A DNA stretch of 64,000 bases from Amphiplicatus metriothermophilus (GTDB lineage: Bacteria; Pseudomonadota; Alphaproteobacteria; Caulobacterales; Parvularculaceae): assembly GCF_900199215.1 (NCBI RefSeq), contig NZ_FZQA01000003.1:186001-250000 (forward strand), in the 5' to 3' direction. Both the position numbers and the translations under genes were made by a program. Positions 2,838-18,599 of the stretch are shown piece after piece (the stretch's first letter is position 1; every line of letters starts with the position of its first letter). The notes beneath the pieces are model-generated. The model was given only the letters and a program-made list of their open reading frames with translations. It was not told the origin of the DNA and searched no databases.

Positions 2838-6927
<4,090 letters not shown>

Positions 6928-10007: not shown

Positions 10008-12362
10008 TCACGCGCCCTCCAGGAAGGCGTCGATGACCTTTTTCGGGCCGGTATGGTCGAAATCGACGACGAGCTTCTGTCCGTCCGCGGCGGTCACCTT
10101 TCCGTAGCCGAACTTCTGATGGAACACCCGCTGGCCCACGGAGAATCTGGACTTTCCCGGCGCGCTGACGGAGACCGTCGCGGCGCGCCCTTCGATGAGG
10201 GGCGGGCGGGCGGCGCGCGCCTTGGCGGCGCGGGCCCGCCGCCAGCCGGGATTGTCGTAATAGGCGTCCTCGTCGATCCTCGCCCCGTCGAAGGCGGACC
10301 GCCTCGCGAAATTGCGCGCCGCGGCGCCGTAAAGTCCCGGCTCGGAGACGACGTCGACCGCGTCCTCGGGCAGCTCGTCGATGAAGCGCGAGGGGATGGC
10401 GTTCTGCCAGCGGCCGAAGATCTGGCGGTTGGCGGCGAAGGAGATGCGGCAGCTTTCCTTCGCCCGGGTCACGCCCACATAGGCGAGGCGGCGCTCCTCC
10501 TCGAGGGCGGCCTCGCCCTTTTCGTCGAGCGCGCGCTGGGAGGGAAAGATCCCTTCCTCCCAGCCGGGGAGAAACACCACGGGAAACTCAAGACCCTTGG
10601 CCGCGTGCAGGGTCATCAGCCAGACCTGTCCGTCAACGGAGGATTCATTGAGCTCCGAGACCAGCGCCACATGGTCGAGATAGCCTTCGAGCGCGTCGAA
10701 CTCCGAGGCCGCCTGCACCAGCTCCTTGAGGTTGTCGAGCTTGGAGTCCGCCTGCGCCGATTTCGACGTCTTCCACATGTCGATATAGCCGGACTCCTCG
10801 AGGACGAGCTCGGCGATGTCGGCCGGCGGCATGTCGCGCGCGTCGCGCGCCCAGCGGTCGAGGTCGTCGAGAAAGCGCGCGAGCGCCTTGCGCGCCGCGG
10901 CGGTCAGGTCGTCCGTCTCCAGCGCGAGCCGGCCGGCCGCGGCGAGGGAAACGCCCGCGTCGCGCGCGATTCTGTGCAGGGTCTGCAAAGCCTTCTCGCC
11001 GAGGCCGCGGCGCGGCTTGTTGACGACACGCTCGAAGGAAAGATCGTCGTCGGCGCTGCGGATGAGCCGCAGATAGGCGAGGGCGTCGCGCGTCTCCTCG
11101 CGTTCGTAAAAGCGCGGGCCGCCGACGACCTTGTAGGGAACGCCGATCGCGTTGAAGCGCTCTTCGAAGGCGCGCATCTGGAAGGAGGCGCGCACCAGCA
11201 CCGCCATGTCGGAAAGCGGGCGGCCCTTCATCTGCTCGGCCTCGATGTCGTCGGCGACGACGCGCGCTTCCTCCTCGCCGTCCCACACCCCGCGCAGGCG
11301 CACCGGCTCGCCGTCCTCGCGCTCGGTCCACAGCGTCTTGCCAAGGCGCGCCCTGTTGGCGGAAATGAGTCCCGACGCCGCGGCGAGGATCGCCGGCGTC
11401 GAGCGGTAATTGCGTTCGAGCCGGATCACCGTCGCGCCGGGAAAATCTTTCTCGAAACGGAGGATGTTCTCGACCTCCGCTCCGCGCCAGCCGTAGATCG
11501 ACTGATCGTCGTCGCCGACGCAGCAGATGTTGCGATGCTTCTGCGCGAGAAGGCGCAGCCACAGATACTGCGCGACGTTCGTGTCCTGATATTCGTCGAC
11601 CAGCATGTAGCGGAAGCGGTTCTGATAGTCGGCGAGAACGTCCGGGCGGTTCTGGAAGATCGTCAGGTTATGAACCAGAAGATCGCCGAAGTCGGCCGCG
11701 TTGAGCGTCTTCAGCCGCGCCTGATAGGCCGCATAAAGGGCGATCGCGCGCCCGTCGGCGAAATGATGCGCCTCGCTGGCGGGAACCTTGTCGGGGGTGA
11801 GGCCGCGGTTCTTCCAGCCGTCGATCATGGCCGCCAGGCCCCGCCCGGTCCAGCGCTTCTCGTCGAGGCCGGCCGCCTCGATCGCCTGCTTGGCGAGACG
11901 CGCCTGGTCGTCGGCGTCGATGATGGCGAAGCTCGGCCTGAGGCCGACGAGCTCGGCGTGCCGGCGCAGGATCTGCGCGCCAATGGAATGGAACGTGCCG
12001 AGCCACTGCATTCCTTCGACGCCGCCGCGCCCCTGGCCGATGAGCGCGCCGACGCGCTCCTTCATCTCGCGCGCGGCCTTGTTGGTGAAGGTGACCGCGA
12101 GGATCTGCCAGGGCCGCGCCTTGCCGGCGAAGAGAAGGTGGGCGAGCCGCGTCGTCAGCGCGCGCGTCTTGCCGGTGCCGGCGCCGGCCAGGACGAGCAC
12201 CGGGCCTTCGGTCGCGAGCACGGCGGCGCGCTGTTCGTCGTTGAGGCATTGGAGATAGGGCGCGTCGGCGAACGCCGCCGGCGCTTCGGAAAGGCCGGGC
12301 GGGCGCAGGCCGGCCTGCGCCAGTTCGGAAAGGGACGGTTTGGGGGCGGGGCGCGGACTCAT
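10008..12362 (-). CDS. uvrD: UvrD/PcrA-type superfamily 1 DNA helicase
   Basis: A 784-residue 3'-5' DNA helicase for nucleotide excision and mismatch repair and for clearing conflicts with RNA polymerase. SF1A motifs are in order: Q motif 'LNDEQRAAV', Walker A AGAGTGKT, motif Ia 'VTFTNKAA', DEYQDTN (motif II), 'VGDDDQSIYGWRGA' (III), 'RLERNYRS' (IV), 'MTLHAAKGLEFP' (V) and 'RRLAYVGVTRAK' (VI). The C-terminal 60 residues ('SVGQRVFHQKFGYGKV') form the Tudor-like RNA polymerase-binding domain of PcrA/UvrD. ATG 12362 precedes a proline-rich N-terminus common in alphaproteobacteria. Firm assignment. Confidence 0.95.
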   Translation of the reverse strand: MSPRPAPKPSLSELAQAGLRPPGLSEAPAAFADAPYLQCLNDEQRAAVLATEGPVLVLAGAGTGKTRALTTRLAHLLFAGKARPWQILAVTFTNKAAREMKERVGALIGQGRGGVEGMQWLGTFHSIGAQILRRHAELVGLRPSFAIIDADDQARLAKQAIEAAGLDEKRWTGRGLAAMIDGWKNRGLTPDKVPASEAHHFADGRAIALYAAYQARLKTLNAADFGDLLVHNLTIFQNRPDVLADYQNRFRYMLVDEYQDTNVAQYLWLRLLAQKHRNICCVGDDDQSIYGWRGAEVENILRFEKDFPGATVIRLERNYRSTPAILAAASGLISANRARLGKTLWTEREDGEPVRLRGVWDGEEEARVVADDIEAEQMKGRPLSDMAVLVRASFQMRAFEERFNAIGVPYKVVGGPRFYEREETRDALAYLRLIRSADDDLSFERVVNKPRRGLGEKALQTLHRIARDAGVSLAAAGRLALETDDLTAAARKALARFLDDLDRWARDARDMPPADIAELVLEESGYIDMWKTSKSAQADSKLDNLKELVQAASEFDALEGYLDHVALVSELNESSVDGQVWLMTLHAAKGLEFPVVFLPGWEEGIFPSQRALDEKGEAALEEERRLAYVGVTRAKESCRISFAANRQIFGRWQNAIPSRFIDELPEDAVDVVSEPGLYGAAARNFARRSAFDGARIDEDAYYDNPGWRRARAAKARAARPPLIEGRAATVSVSAPGKSRFSVGQRVFHQKFGYGKVTAADGQKLVVDFDHTGPKKVIDAFLEGA

Positions 12363-12440
12363 GGGCCCACCCTAGCCGAGGCGGAACGATTCTGGAACAT
12401 GCGCCGCCGCGACGCATCGCGCGCGCCCGCGCCCGCGCGC

Positions 12441-12761
12441 TCAGCCGAGGCTCACCGCCGTGCCGGAGGCCGAGACCATCATCATCGACCCCTTCTCGCC
12501 GATCACCTCGTAGTCGATGTCGACGCCGACCACCGCGTCGGCGCCGAGCCGGCGCGCCTCCTCGGCGAGCTCGTCGAGCGCGATCCGCCGCGCCTCGCGC
12601 AGGGATTTCTCGTAAGAGCCCGAGCGTCCGCCGACGATGTCGCGAATGCCGGCGAACAGGTCGCGGAACACATGCGCGCCGAGGATCGCCTCGCCGACGA
12701 CGACGCCCTTGTAGTCGCGAATGGTTCTGCCCTGGATGTCGTGAGTCGTGGTCAGGATCAT
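12441..12761 (-). CDS. YbjQ family (UPF0145) protein
   Basis: A 106-residue protein of the YbjQ family, putative heavy-metal-binding domain proteins of unknown function that assemble into pentamers. It aligns along its full length with E. coli YbjQ: '[20 protein letters not shown]', '[13 protein letters not shown]', '[16 protein letters not shown]' and '[11 protein letters not shown]'. Two adjacent ATGs exist; the second (12761) gives the E. coli length and sits 5 nt after GGAGA, so it is preferred over 12764. It lies 78 nt from the uvrD start on the same strand and is divergent from the YegP gene. Confidence 0.88.
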
Positions 12762-12951
12762 CATTGTCTCCGAAGGCTGAAGGATTTGCATCGAATTGAC
12801 GTCGAATGCGCGGACGACATGTGGGACGCGCGCCGCGCCTGCGCAACCGCGATCGGCCGGGCCGGTCGGTTCGCGCGCCGAAGGGTTGATCTTCGCGCGC
12901 GCTTCGCCGAACCTCTCGGCGGGTCCGTTTCAGCCCTGGAGGGAGAAAGAC

Positions 12952-13287
12952 ATGGCCGGGAAATTCGAAATCTACAACGACAAAGCCGGGGAGTTCCGTT
13001 TCCGGTTGAAAGCCGCGAACGGCCAGACCATCCTGGCGAGCGAAGGCTACAAGGCGAAATCGGGCGCGGAGAACGGCATCGAATCGGTGAAGAAGAACGC
13101 CGCCGATCCGGCGTGCTTCGAGAAGAAAACCTCGTCGAGCGGCAAACCCTATTTCGTGGTGAAGGCCGGCAATCGCGAAGTGATCGGCGCGTCCGAGATG
13201 TACGAGTCCGACGCCGCCTGCGAGAACGGAATCAAGTCCGTCATGACCAATGCGCCGGGCGCGTCGGTGGAGGATCAGACGGCGTAG
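12952..13287 (+). CDS. YegP family (DUF1508) protein
   Basis: A 111-residue protein made of two tandem DUF1508 units of about 50 residues. The first unit has 'FEIYNDKAGEFRFRLKAANGQTILASEGYKAKSGAENGIESVKKNA'-type content in two parts, and the second repeats it ('GKPYFVVKAGNREVIGASEMY'...'ENGIKSVMTNA'). Family members fold as paired beta-sheets and have no settled function. ATG 12952 follows a strong GGAGGGAGAAAG ribosome-binding site, whereas an upstream in-frame extension lacks homology. It is convergent with the SFPD-repeat gene 23 nt away, so the two messages meet there. Confidence 0.88.
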   Translation: MAGKFEIYNDKAGEFRFRLKAANGQTILASEGYKAKSGAENGIESVKKNAADPACFEKKTSSSGKPYFVVKAGNREVIGASEMYESDAACENGIKSVMTNAPGASVEDQTA

Positions 13288-13310
13288 GGGCGCGCGCCTG
13301 CGCGGCTTTG

Positions 13311-13628
13311 TTACGGAAGACCGGGAAAGCTTTCCACGAACCTGATTGTCAGGTCGGGGAAGCTGTCGACGTACTGGATTTTGAAATCCGGAAAGCTGTC
13401 GACGAAACGCCATTCGCCGCAGTCGTCGGGAAAGCTCTCGACCGCTTTCACTTTGAGATCGGGAAAGCTCTCGACGATCTGCACCTTGAGGTCGGGGAAG
13501 CTGTCGACGACCTGCACGTCGCCGCGGAGGGGCAAGCCCTTCAGCGTGCAGTCCGGACCGATTTTTTCAGCGTGCGCGGCGCCCGCCCACAGGGCGAGGG
13601 CCGTCGCGGCGATGGCGAAGCGCATCAT
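13311..13628 (-). CDS. Small secreted SFPD-repeat protein, possible 7(1) septoil-knot (Septknot) family
   Basis: A 105-residue exported protein. A signal peptide (about residues 1-20, cleavage after AHA) is followed by six near-identical units, each built around SFPD/SFPG with a preceding V-(D/E): SFP at residues 43, 54, 65, 78, 89 and 100. Spacing is 11 residues except 13 between units three and four, where DDCGE is inserted. Two cysteines (27 and 70) could form a disulfide. The repeat matches my recollection of the Septknot family of deeply knotted bacterial proteins; that is recall, not a search. Function unknown. It sits alone between yegP-like and ilvA genes. Confidence 0.72.
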   Translation of the reverse strand: MMRFAIAATALALWAGAAHAEKIGPDCTLKGLPLRGDVQVVDSFPDLKVQIVESFPDLKVKAVESFPDDCGEWRFVDSFPDFKIQYVDSFPDLTIRFVESFPGLP

Positions 13629-13688
13629 GCTGGCGTCTCCCCTGCGCCCATGATCGCGCGCCGTCGCGTTCTGCGCAAGGCGGTTCGG

Positions 13689-14942
13689 TCAGTACGCCGC
13701 CATTTCGACATTGAAGCCGCGCGCGCGCAAGGCAGCGATCACGCGCTCGAGATGCGGCCGGTCGAAAGTCTCGACCGAAATGTCGATATAGGTCTGTTTC
13801 GCCGGCAGGTCGGAGAAAATCTTGTGATAGGCGACGTCGATGACGTTGGCCTGCTCATGGGCGATGATCTCGGACACGCGCGTCAATTGTCCGGGCACGT
13901 CGAGCAGCTCGATTCTGAGCCGTGCGATGCGCCCCTGGCGCACGAGGTCGCGCATCAGGATGGAGGAAAGCAGCCGCGTGTCGATATTGCCGCCGCAGAT
14001 CACGGTCGCGACCTTCCTGCCGCGGAAGCGGTCGGGATGCTCGAGCACGGCCGCAAGCCCCGCCGCGCCGGCGCCTTCGGCGAGCACTTTCTGCACGTTG
14101 AGATAAAGGCTGAGCGCGCGCTCGAGAGCGCGTTCGTTGACGAGCACGATGTCGTCGACGAGCGCCTTGATGAGCGCGCGGGTGATCGCGCCCGGTTCGC
14201 GCACGGCGATGCCTTCGGCGAGCGTGACGCCGCCCACGGGACGCTGCTCGCCTTTGACGGCGTTGTACATGGACGGATAAAGCTCGGCCTGCGCGCCGAC
14301 GATCTGGCACCTCGCGCCGAGCCTGCGCGCCGCGGCGGCCATGCCGGCGAGCAGCCCGCCGCCGCCGATGGGCGCGACGATGACGTCGATGTCGGGAAGG
14401 TCGGCCAGCATCTCCGCCGCGACGGCGCCCTGGCCGGCGATCACGTACGGATCGTCGAAGGGATGGACGTAGACGCGTCCCTCGCGCGCGCAGATCTCCT
14501 GCGCATAGGCGTTGGCTTCGTCGAAACCGTCCCCATGCAGAACGACATGGGCGCCGAGCCGCTCGGTCTGCTCGACCTTCACGTAGGGCGTCGTCTCCGG
14601 CATGACGATCCTGGCGTCGACGCCGAGAAGCGCGGCGTGCCGCGCGAGGCCCTGCGCGTGATTGCCGGCCGAGGCTGCGACGACGCCGCGCGCGCGCGCC
14701 GCCGCATCCAGGCTCAGAAGCTTGGCGAGCGCCCCGCGCTCCTTGAAGGATCCCGTATGCTGAAGGTTCTCATATTTGATCCACAGCTCGCAGCCCGCCA
14801 GCGCCGAGAGCTTGTCCGAGCGCAGAAAAGGGGTCTTCAGCACCCCCTCCCAGGCGGGATGGGCGCGGCGCAGAATCGCGTCGAAAGCCCCGTCGTCGAG
14901 GCCGGGGATGAGCGATTTCTCGCGATTTAGTTGCGTCGCCAT
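13689..14942 (-). CDS. ilvA: Threonine ammonia-lyase with C-terminal ACT domain
   Basis: A PLP enzyme that deaminates threonine to 2-oxobutyrate, the first step to isoleucine. The 417-residue protein carries the PLP lysine (Lys67 in GSFKERG), the phosphate-binding 'GGGGLLAG' loop, and a single C-terminal ACT domain (about 325-405, 'RLRIELLDVPGQLTRVSEII'), the form of ~400-residue enzymes rather than the double-ACT E. coli IlvA. It could be the catabolic TdcB-like type; the ACT domain suggests feedback regulation. ATG 14942 (MATQLN) is chosen, with ATG 14948 possible; neither has a strong ribosome-binding site. It is divergent from yerC-hisG. Confidence 0.9.
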   Translation of the reverse strand: MATQLNREKSLIPGLDDGAFDAILRRAHPAWEGVLKTPFLRSDKLSALAGCELWIKYENLQHTGSFKERGALAKLLSLDAAARARGVVAASAGNHAQGLARHAALLGVDARIVMPETTPYVKVEQTERLGAHVVLHGDGFDEANAYAQEICAREGRVYVHPFDDPYVIAGQGAVAAEMLADLPDIDVIVAPIGGGGLLAGMAAAARRLGARCQIVGAQAELYPSMYNAVKGEQRPVGGVTLAEGIAVREPGAITRALIKALVDDIVLVNERALERALSLYLNVQKVLAEGAGAAGLAAVLEHPDRFRGRKVATVICGGNIDTRLLSSILMRDLVRQGRIARLRIELLDVPGQLTRVSEIIAHEQANVIDVAYHKIFSDLPAKQTYIDISVETFDRPHLERVIAALRARGFNVEMAAY

Positions 14943-15048
14943 GGTCATTTCAGCGACTAAAGCGGAATTGCGAGCACGTTTCCACCAGAAAATCGCCGCC
15001 GCGCCCGATCGCCGCGGCGGCGAAACCCGACGCGGCGCCGCCGGGGGC

Positions 15049-15088
15049 TTGCGGCGCGGGCGCGGCGCCTGTATTAGCATGCTAACAC
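15049..15088 (+). promoter_or_regulatory. yerC-hisG promoter with overlapping palindromic operator
   Basis: A TTGCGG -35 (15049-15054) and TATTAG -10 (15072-15077) have a 17-nt spacer. The 18-bp palindrome GTATTAGCATGCTAACAC (15071-15088, one mismatched pair, perfect TTAGCATGCTAA core) covers the -10 and likely start site, the position expected of a repressor operator. YerC, encoded directly downstream, is the natural candidate. Confidence 0.6.
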
Positions 15089-17327: not shown

Positions 17328-18599
17328 ATGGACAGTCTGGCGATCATCGGCGGCCGGCCGCTTTTCGGTGAGATCGCGATCAGCGGCGCCAAGAATTCGG
17401 CGCTCAAGGTTATGGCGGCCGCGCTTTTGAGCGATGAGCCGCTGGTCATGGCCAACGCGCCGCGGCTCGCCGACGTGGACATGATGCTGCGCCTGCTCGA
17501 ACAGCACGGCGTCGAGCATGCGTTCGAGAATTCGACGTTGAGACTGCGTGCCCGCGCGATCCGCTCGACGCTCGCGCCGTACGACCTTGTGCGCAAGATG
17601 CGCGCCTCGTTCAACGTGCTGGGCCCGCTTGTCGCGCGCGAGGGCGAGGCGAAAGTGTCGCTGCCGGGCGGCTGCGCTATCGGCGCGCGCCCGGTCGATC
17701 TGCATCTCAAAGCGCTCGCCGCGATGGGCGCCGCCATCGACCTCGACGAGGGCTATGTCATCGCCGCGGCGCCGGACGGGCTTCATGGCGCGCGCATCGA
17801 CTTTCCCTTCGTTTCCGTCGGGGCGACCGAGCACGCCATGCTTGCTGCGACGCTCGCTAAAGGCGAGACCGTGCTCGGCAACGCCGCCCGCGAGCCGGAG
17901 ATCGCCGATCTCGCGCAATGTCTTGTGGCAATGGGCGCGAAGATCGAAGGGGCGGGGACCTCCACCATCCGCATCGAGGGCGTGGAGCGTCTCAGCGGCG
18001 CGCGCCACGAAGTGCTGCCGGACCGTATTGAAACGGGCGCCTACGCCATGGCGGCGGGCGTCGCCGGCGGCGAGCTGTTTTTGCGCAATGCGCGCCTTGA
18101 GCTTCTCGGCGCGGCGGTGGGAACGCTGGAGGAAGCCGGCCTGTCCCTGACGGCGGAGGAAGGCGGCGTCAGGGTCCGCCGCACGGGCGATCGCTGCCGC
18201 GCGGTTGACGTGGTCACGCAGCCCTTTCCCGGCTTTCCGACCGACCTTCAGGCGCAGTTCATGGCCCTGATGGCGACCGCCGACGGCGTGTCCGCCATCA
18301 AGGAGACGATCTTCGAGAACCGCTTCATGCACGCCCCGGAGCTGATGCGCATGGGCGCGCATATCTCTATCGACGGGCAGACCGCGACGGTGCGCGGCGT
18401 GAAGCGCCTCAAGGGCGCGCCGGTGATGGCCACGGACCTGCGCGCCTCGATGAGCCTGGTGCTGGCCGCGCTCGGCGCGGAAGGCCAGACCATCGTCAAT
18501 CGCGTCTACCACCTTGACCGCGGCTTCGAGCGCTTGGAAGAAAAGCTTCAGGCCTGCGGCGCGCTCATCGAGCGCATCAAGGAGCAGAGGCCGGCATGA
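17328..18599 (+). CDS. murA: MurA, UDP-GlcNAc 1-carboxyvinyltransferase
   Basis: MurA transfers enolpyruvate from PEP to UDP-GlcNAc, the first committed step of peptidoglycan synthesis in the cytoplasm. The 423-residue protein has the substrate-binding Lys22-Asn23 (SGAKNSALK), the active-site loop cysteine Cys116 in [11 protein letters not shown] (the fosfomycin target), and '[15 protein letters not shown]' near residue 305, all family hallmarks. ATG 17328 yields the usual N-terminus MDSLAIIGG. It overlaps the DUF2948 gene by 4 nt, and hisD follows: a conserved alphaproteobacterial group. Confidence 0.97.

Follow-up and report, generated by a model that had tools for sequence, protein, structure and literature searches.

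A small, apparently exported repeat protein of Amphiplicatus metriothermophilus with homology to a knotted Ureaplasma protein and relatives in phage tail regions

What is a small, repeat-rich protein doing among ordinary metabolic genes of Amphiplicatus metriothermophilus, and is its chain knotted? We addressed this question for one open reading frame, P0002, in a window that comprises the whole 64,000-nucleotide stretch of DNA analysed here (contig NZ_FZQA01000003.1, positions 186,001 to 250,000). A first-pass annotation, made from the sequence, had described a secreted protein of six SFPD repeats with two cysteines and had suggested membership in a deeply knotted "Septknot" family. We found the open reading frame at exactly the positions 13311-13628 given there and can add its strand, minus, which that annotation had left out. 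In window coordinates, the features are as follows.

13311..13628, minus strand: open reading frame P0002, 105 aa, ATG start; repeat protein of the Q9PR55/phrog_6462 family
13569..13628, minus strand: signal peptide, residues 1-20, cleavage between AHA and E, read by eye from the sequence
13314..13568, minus strand: mature domain, 85 aa, with six strands predicted in the AF2 model (mature residues 16-20, 27-31, 38-42, 52-55, 62-66 and 73-77)
13548..13550, minus strand: codon of Cys27 (mature Cys7), kept or lost together with Cys70 in 78/78 ungapped relatives
13491..13502, minus strand: unit 1, SFPD, residues 43-46
13458..13469, minus strand: unit 2, SFPD, residues 54-57
13425..13436, minus strand: unit 3, SFPD, residues 65-68
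13413..13427, minus strand: DDCGE, residues 68-72, between units 3 and 4; Gly71 is invariant in a 61-sequence alignment
13419..13421, minus strand: codon of Cys70 (mature Cys50)
13386..13397, minus strand: unit 4, SFPD, residues 78-81
13353..13364, minus strand: unit 5, SFPD, residues 89-92
13320..13331, minus strand: unit 6, SFPG, residues 100-103; Gly103 is invariant in the 61-sequence alignment
13689..15080, minus strand: threonine ammonia-lyase, on the same strand as the open reading frame, with its end 60 bp upstream

Six repeat units are indeed present, but five of them carry SFPD and the last reads SFPG. Their serines stand at positions 43, 54, 65, 78, 89 and 100, spaced by 11, 11, 13, 11 and 11 residues. 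The tripeptide SFP occurs six times in P0002 and at most three times in any of 200,000 shuffled versions of the 85-residue mature chain, and a comparison of the protein with itself has its maxima at offsets of 11 (29 identities) and 35 (20 identities), the latter pairing units 1-3 with units 4-6. Both cysteines, Cys27 and Cys70, and the DDCGE insert at residues 68-72 are where the first-pass annotation had seen them, and its call of a small secreted protein agrees with the N-terminal signal peptide and cleavage site that we read by eye. Compared with nine relatives, P0002 shows dN values of 0.12-0.22 and dS values of 0.89-2.2; by this purifying selection and its presence in 37/62 genomes of the family, P0002 is a real gene. 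A plus-strand reading frame of 1625 aa (10053-14930), antisense to the P0002 gene and its neighbours, is probably an artefact of high GC content.

The surroundings are as ordinary as had been noted, with genes for threonine ammonia-lyase, a YbjQ-family protein and a DUF1508 protein next to the open reading frame and no recognised phage gene adjoining it in the window. We considered an operon with the threonine ammonia-lyase gene and dropped the idea because the enzyme is encoded in the flanks of 0/134 loci outside the own genome. The adjoining DUF1508 protein (12952-13287, plus strand) has two matched stretches, probably a tandem domain pair. A gene at 17340-18599 (plus strand), which we take to be murA, lies 3.7 kb away in the window, and a relative of it stands near the P0002 homologue in three genomes of the same genus. 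We read this proximity as residual synteny; an insertion of about 3.7 kb may have separated the two genes in the window, or a rearrangement may have occurred there. Among the 40 neighbour clusters shown, no neighbour of the chromosomal copies recurs at more than 9 loci, whose titles are all alphaproteobacterial. Two larger clusters, with 22 and 16 loci, were set aside; judged by example members, they probably consist of antisense frames of the P0002-family gene itself.

Sequence comparison points to a clear homology between P0002 and the Ureaplasma protein Q9PR55/UU089.1 over the region of its knotted core. With phmmer, P0002 matched PDB entry 8iwa at E 3.5e-11 (residues 38-93 on chain residues 27-84), and a profile of our 61-row alignment, A1, reached E 1.1e-15 (chain residues 26-85), while the next-best PDB sequences stood at E 0.82 and 0.46; 8iwa is also the top Foldseek match of the P0002 model. 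The 7_1 knot of Q9PR55 was predicted by AlphaFold and then confirmed by X-ray crystallography, according to the accessible parts of PMC11223836 and PMC13352647, and PDB entry 8jrm is titled as a 7_1-knotted solution structure. The accessible part of Brems et al. 2022 (PMC9278004) places the knotted core at residues 27-83, which correspond to about residues 38-92 of P0002 in the phmmer alignment, and describes a homologue, P73136, of 112 aa and 48% identity to Q9PR55, with a predicted 5_1 knot and a core at residues 45-94. This kind of torus knot and the homologue P73136 are thus already known, and P0002 joins them as a further family member. The Septknot suggestion was right as to kinship with a solved 7_1-knotted protein. 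As to the name, no profile called "Septknot" matched P0002 in Pfam-A or NCBIfam at E<=1, or ten relatives in Pfam-A, and the word did not occur among the 5.39 million papers searched. P0002 had no significant match of any kind in Pfam and NCBIfam.

Within this family, P0002 differs from the solved protein in several respects. Like Q9PR55 (PDB 8iwa, 8iwb, 8iwc, 8jrm and 8w68), it has a VxSFPDxKVQ-type repeat unit, with 48% identity over Foldseek's 64-column alignment, and six strands are present in the models of both P0002 and the Q9PR55-type relative L053 (L-numbers designate homologous loci). Four features set P0002 apart from the Q9PR55 type: it begins with a signal peptide, contains the Cys pair and DDCGE, and has an SFPG cap at the C-terminus; where P0002 has DDCGE, the Q9PR55-type chains carry a stretch, the SNSSSF site, that is two residues longer. 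The Q9PR55-type cytosolic branch is represented here by L053 and L133-L136, was found in 5/297 genomes searched, and is without signal peptide, Cys pair and SFPG cap, its members having the longer SNSSSF-like stretch instead. P0002 departs from it in all four traits and, judged by sequence, is part of a separate, exported branch. The cyanobacterial members L031 and L034 are of the P0002 type, and P73136, a cyanobacterial protein, resembles the exported branch in its length of 112 aa. A further match links P0002 to the phage protein family phrog_6462 (E 4.7e-31, residues 20-105 on profile positions 18-103 of 103), which was also matched by 61/61 rows of A1; phrog_6462 is a phage family, whereas the P0002 gene is chromosomal with no recognised phage gene alongside.

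We picture P0002 as a small exported beta-repeat protein, periplasmic or secreted, of the Q9PR55/P73136 torus-knot family, in which six 11-residue strand-turn units would lead the chain about twice round a ring, the second pass interlaced with the first. The first-pass annotation had proposed a structure prediction as a check. AF2 modelled mature P0002 with six short strands (pLDDT 95.7, pTM 0.83), and the only Foldseek matches at E<=0.001 were 8iwa (two chains), 8iwb and 8jrm, with E values of 5e-6 to 2e-4. The overlay with these entries was poor, however, with TM scores of 0.32-0.34 by query length (0.34 for 8iwa) at an rmsd of 10 A. VIA superposed 57 residues at 1.9 A (model residues 8-78 on 8iwa chain residues 16-89, Z 6.0). 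In a library of viral folds, the best match of the P0002 model had E 0.43. The control was L053, a relative of the Q9PR55 type under a Ruminococcus title, which matches 8iwa at E 2.9e-28 and was modelled from an alignment drawn mostly from the exported branch. Its model (pLDDT 86.0, pTM 0.68) was off as well, with a Foldseek TM score of 0.50, an rmsd of 9.3 A and 59% identity to 8iwa; VIA aligned 66 residues at 3.3 A (Z 8.9), and the end points of this alignment place the C-terminal end out of register by one unit. Since the control missed the crystal arrangement, the AF2 predictions speak neither for nor against a 7_1 knot in P0002, nor do they decide between 5_1 and 7_1.

Ring geometry offers a second view. 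Our ideal (2,N) ring has 11-residue units that each advance by 720/N degrees, after the designed torus-knot repeats in the accessible part of PMC10598012; these de novo proteins likewise lead a repeat chain twice round an axis, but they are helical, whereas P0002 is a natural beta repeat. At N=7, the open ideal chain reads as 5_1 in 18/24 closures at 66 aa and as 7_1 in 22/24 closures at 77 aa. Extended to the 82-88 aa of mature P0002, it collides with itself and gives no listed knot in 19/24 and 24/24 closures. Mature Cys7 and Cys50 are 3.74 units apart, which brings them close to each other at N=7 (25 degrees, 9th percentile of pairs) and also at N=8, and to opposite sides at N=5 (179 degrees, 76th percentile of pairs). 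If the disulfide is real, this closeness at N=7 favours a turn of 3.5 units, the turn of a 7_1 ring. A 5_1 knot that arises from short ends is also compatible with such a ring.

Knot type is not fixed by family membership, because the homologue P73136 is predicted to be 5_1. We think it likely that the P0002 chain itself is knotted, and put the chance that the knot is 7_1 at about even. The exported branch could instead tie a 5_1 knot with one winding fewer, as predicted for P73136 (48% identical to Q9PR55) in the accessible part of PMC9278004, and the failure of the P0002 model to overlay on the 7_1 crystal in Foldseek would fit such a knot. A small change at a terminus could suffice, as the ideal 3.5-unit ring reads 5_1 at 66 aa and 7_1 at 77 aa. 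However, the control homologue is off too, so that AF2 itself may have erred on repeats that are nearly identical, and the pair Cys27-Cys70 fits 3.5 units per turn rather than 2.5, yet short ends on a 3.5-unit ring would also give 5_1; we regard 5_1 as possible but the less likely knot. An unknotted fold that has the sequence repeats of Q9PR55 without its threading is improbable. The Foldseek TM score of only 0.34 to 8iwa speaks for it, and AF2 has been argued to ignore topological barriers, although the same source, PMC10672856, allows in its accessible part that predicted 5_1 and 7_1 knots could be genuine. Against a plain repeat fold, unit length and strand number are equal in the two proteins, the homology spans the knotted core of Q9PR55, and VIA superposed those 57 residues at 1.9 A.

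The two cysteines of P0002 show a strict pattern of co-occurrence. We counted them among 101 unique relatives aligned through the A1 profile, 78 of which have residues at both columns; the other 23 of the 101, comprising truncated loci, members with shorter N-termini and divergent members, were set aside for gaps at one or both Cys columns. At the columns of Cys27 and Cys70, 72 of the 78 relatives have both cysteines, six have neither and none has a single one, an outcome with a chance of 4e-9 under independence if relatedness is ignored. The six pairless rows form two groups of look-alikes (L036, L120 and L121; L093, L129 and L130), which may reflect no more than a handful of losses of the pair. 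Single cysteines do occur outside this strict count: the gapped row L124 has one that is one residue off the column, and Q9PR55 has one within the aligned stretch. A looser count gave 9 apparent singles, which trace back to signal-peptide cysteines (L093, L094, L127 and L049), a truncated locus (L051), the shifted cysteine of L124, and N-terminal cysteines beyond the counted range in L054 (two) and L058.

Export and the Cys pair largely go together. A crude hydrophobicity rule assigns an export-like N-terminus to 67 of the 72 relatives that carry the pair; among the remaining five, L131 has a hydrophobic stretch beyond the reach of the rule, the starts of L001 and L062 are uncertain, and L015 and L042 fall just below the threshold. 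Fourteen members are without an export-like N-terminus, 9 of which have neither cysteine, including the five of the Q9PR55 type, and seven export-like members have neither. A periplasmic disulfide fits this distribution, because the pair is seen in no plainly cytosolic member. The 27-70 disulfide expected in the first-pass annotation thus gains from the 72/6/0 pattern in 78 relatives, while the bond itself is a prediction from sequence. We consider it likely that Cys27 and Cys70 bond, although the small number of groups among the pairless sequences lowers the odds slightly. The disulfide would probably tie the N-terminal segment to the turn that opens the second pass.

A second regularity concerns the residue directly before FPD, which is S, A, H or N and tends to be the same across the units of one protein. 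The string is NNNNNN in the Bacteroidota L026 and L038, HHHHHH in the acidobacterium L032 and the spirochaete L042, and AAAAAA in L033 from Bacteroidia. Among 53 canonical members of less than 80% identity, pairwise identity within a protein is 0.839 at this position, compared with 0.576 in column shuffles (z 29), which leave relatedness in, equally for all positions. The same test gave z values of -1.4 at position -5, -1.3 at -3, 4.8 at -4, 9.1 at -1 and 19.0 at the aromatic +1. In the seven proteins inspected, the units use different codons, which rules out recent gene conversion. The simplest reading is that the six pre-FPD residues pack against one another. Agreement between units at the pre-FPD position (kappa 0.46-0.62) is too flat to separate 2.5 from 3.5 units per turn. 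In the all-His members L032 and L042, the pre-FPD residues could line a metal or anion site.

The gene is a single-copy gene in its own genome and is common among close relatives. It occurs in 37/62 genomes of the family (single-protein query; one genome with two matches), in 82/398 genomes of the order (alignment A1 as query), in 13/385 of the class (alignment A2) and in 6/398 of the phylum (alignment A1), so that its occurrence is patchy at the class and phylum levels. A scan of genome contigs returned 55 loci, one of which, L055, had no match on a second search; their titles name Alphaproteobacteria, Deltaproteobacteria, Bacteroidota, Leptospiraceae, a spirochaete, cyanobacteria, Acidobacteria and others. 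Relatives were also found on 17 distinct viral contigs, where L053 as query retrieved none, and on three plasmid records, two from Leptospira and one from Burkholderia, the latter in a stretch without annotation. Among INPHARED phage records, P0002 had no match at E<=1 and L128 none at 0.01, and P0002 had no match in PADLOC at E<=1. Transposase genes lie within 2 kb of the family gene at the viral loci L057 and L131, which may represent a further route of spread. Two unusual forms deserve mention: a two-domain member of 273 aa in a Paludibacteraceae genome (L049:3932-4750), with a weaker second domain, that adjoins a baseplate-hub gene, and a natural short form (L123:4938-5231) that stops directly after strand 6, without the SFPG cap.

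Our comparisons also suggest that DUF6150 (PF19647) is a distant relative of the P0002 family. Proteins of the DUF6150 type, which lack SFPD unlike the P0002 family, are encoded in L058, L059 and L141 and in the genome loci L050 and L054, and 3/5 of the relatives scanned passed the Pfam cut-off (the two copies in L054 and the second one in L050). Aligned to A1 with hhalign, five of these proteins gave a probability of 97.0 and E 8e-11 over 68 columns, both profiles being of low diversity, and the motif CGEW and an N-terminal Cys are common to them and the P0002 family. P0002 itself had no match to DUF6150 at E<=1; a search of its own genome for DUF6150 found no match, and the control likewise gave no signal. 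In L054, two DUF6150-type copies stand in tandem (3827-4216 and 4302-4679), and in L050 one copy (5065-5427) lies near a main-family member with a degenerate motif.

In viruses and plasmids, the family gene is often found in tail regions. A tail or baseplate gene lies beside or near it at 9/17 viral loci, three of these nine being near-identical: a phrog_4930-type hub gene in L058, L059, L123, L124 and L141 (by profile; L123 also by PHROG), the minor tail gene phrog_1924 in the near-identical loci L127, L129 and L130 (L129 by PHROG, the others by tblastn), and the tail gene phrog_52 in L128. In L125, spanin and endolysin genes adjoin the family gene; in L122, terminase and portal genes are 1.5-4 kb off, and L126 carries the same gene copy as L122. 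For L119 and L120, no structural gene was present among the three neighbours scanned in each. Two prophage-like plasmids of one Leptospira weilii strain (L137:4947-5261 and L139:3947-4261, with the same protein accession) have the gene within a tail operon, flanked on its own strand by phrog_5564 and by baseplate J/gp47, the latter overlapped by 4 bp. Among the 55 genome loci, a hub gene was found only at L049 and, as a fragment, at L054, within flanks of up to 4 kb. At all seven hub loci (L049, L054, L058, L059, L123, L124 and L141), the family gene is antiparallel to the hub gene. A hub-gene search of the own genome found no match, and the control likewise gave no signal.

We know of no function for any relative of P0002, nor, to our knowledge, of one for Ureaplasma Q9PR55. 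An exported, non-enzymatic and probably highly stable protein whose gene is an odd one in a tail module resembles phage-encoded exclusion factors in position. By this analogy, P0002 might be a hyperstable factor of the envelope whose mode of action is binding and not catalysis; relatives in phage baseplate modules would block an envelope step that other phages use (superinfection exclusion), and the chromosomal copy would be the resident version of such a factor. As a statement of function this is tentative and held with low confidence; for the chromosomal copy we rate a host periplasmic binding or stress protein unlinked to phages higher, though somewhat short of even. The single copy and the frequency of the gene in its family (37/62) and order (82/398) agree with such a host role, as do purifying selection and housekeeping neighbours; on the other side, no common neighbour indicates a pathway, and the gene is patchy in the class (13/385) and phylum (6/398). 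It is unlikely that the protein is an accessory structural part of phage tails (baseplates) captured by chromosomes. The Leptospira weilii gene inside a tail operon, with its 4 bp overlap with baseplate J/gp47, and the phrog_4930-kind hub genes at the seven hub loci, a fragment in the case of L054, would suit a tail part, but signal-like starts, seen by eye in L058, L059, L123, L124, L137 and L141, are unusual for a component of the virion, and at all seven the gene and the hub gene run in opposite directions. The tail-linked L128, by contrast, has no signal-like start and is an exception to the export argument.

Taken as a whole, an exported protein of the torus-knot family, probably with a disulfide, is our best explanation of P0002, at a probability of roughly 60%; the role as envelope factor is its tentative part. 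In its boldest form, the exported torus-knot branch would be widespread and disulfide-locked, would serve as an exclusion factor at phage hub loci, would have become resident in Parvularculaceae-like Alphaproteobacteria (a grouping judged by the titles of the nearest named relatives), and would include DUF6150 as a diverged knotted branch; in this combination we hold it to be a long shot.

Four points appear to be new: the Cys-pair rule, the homogenisation of the pre-FPD residues, the link to phage baseplates and the link to DUF6150. None was found in print, in searches made mostly by protein and knot names and largely outside the subscription literature. Among the PDB matches, the Ureaplasma protein is the only family member with solved structures. 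The exported branch is large, with a conserved Cys pair, and extends across Alphaproteobacteria, Bacteroidota, spirochaetes, cyanobacteria and viral contigs, so that the origin, folding and use of the knot are open to study in other hosts. With the predicted disulfide, the knot would be locked by a covalent bond, and the genes around the phage copies suggest a first function that can be tested. If the boldest form holds, P0002 and its relatives would represent a natural knotted protein that combines a covalent lock with a role in phage warfare.
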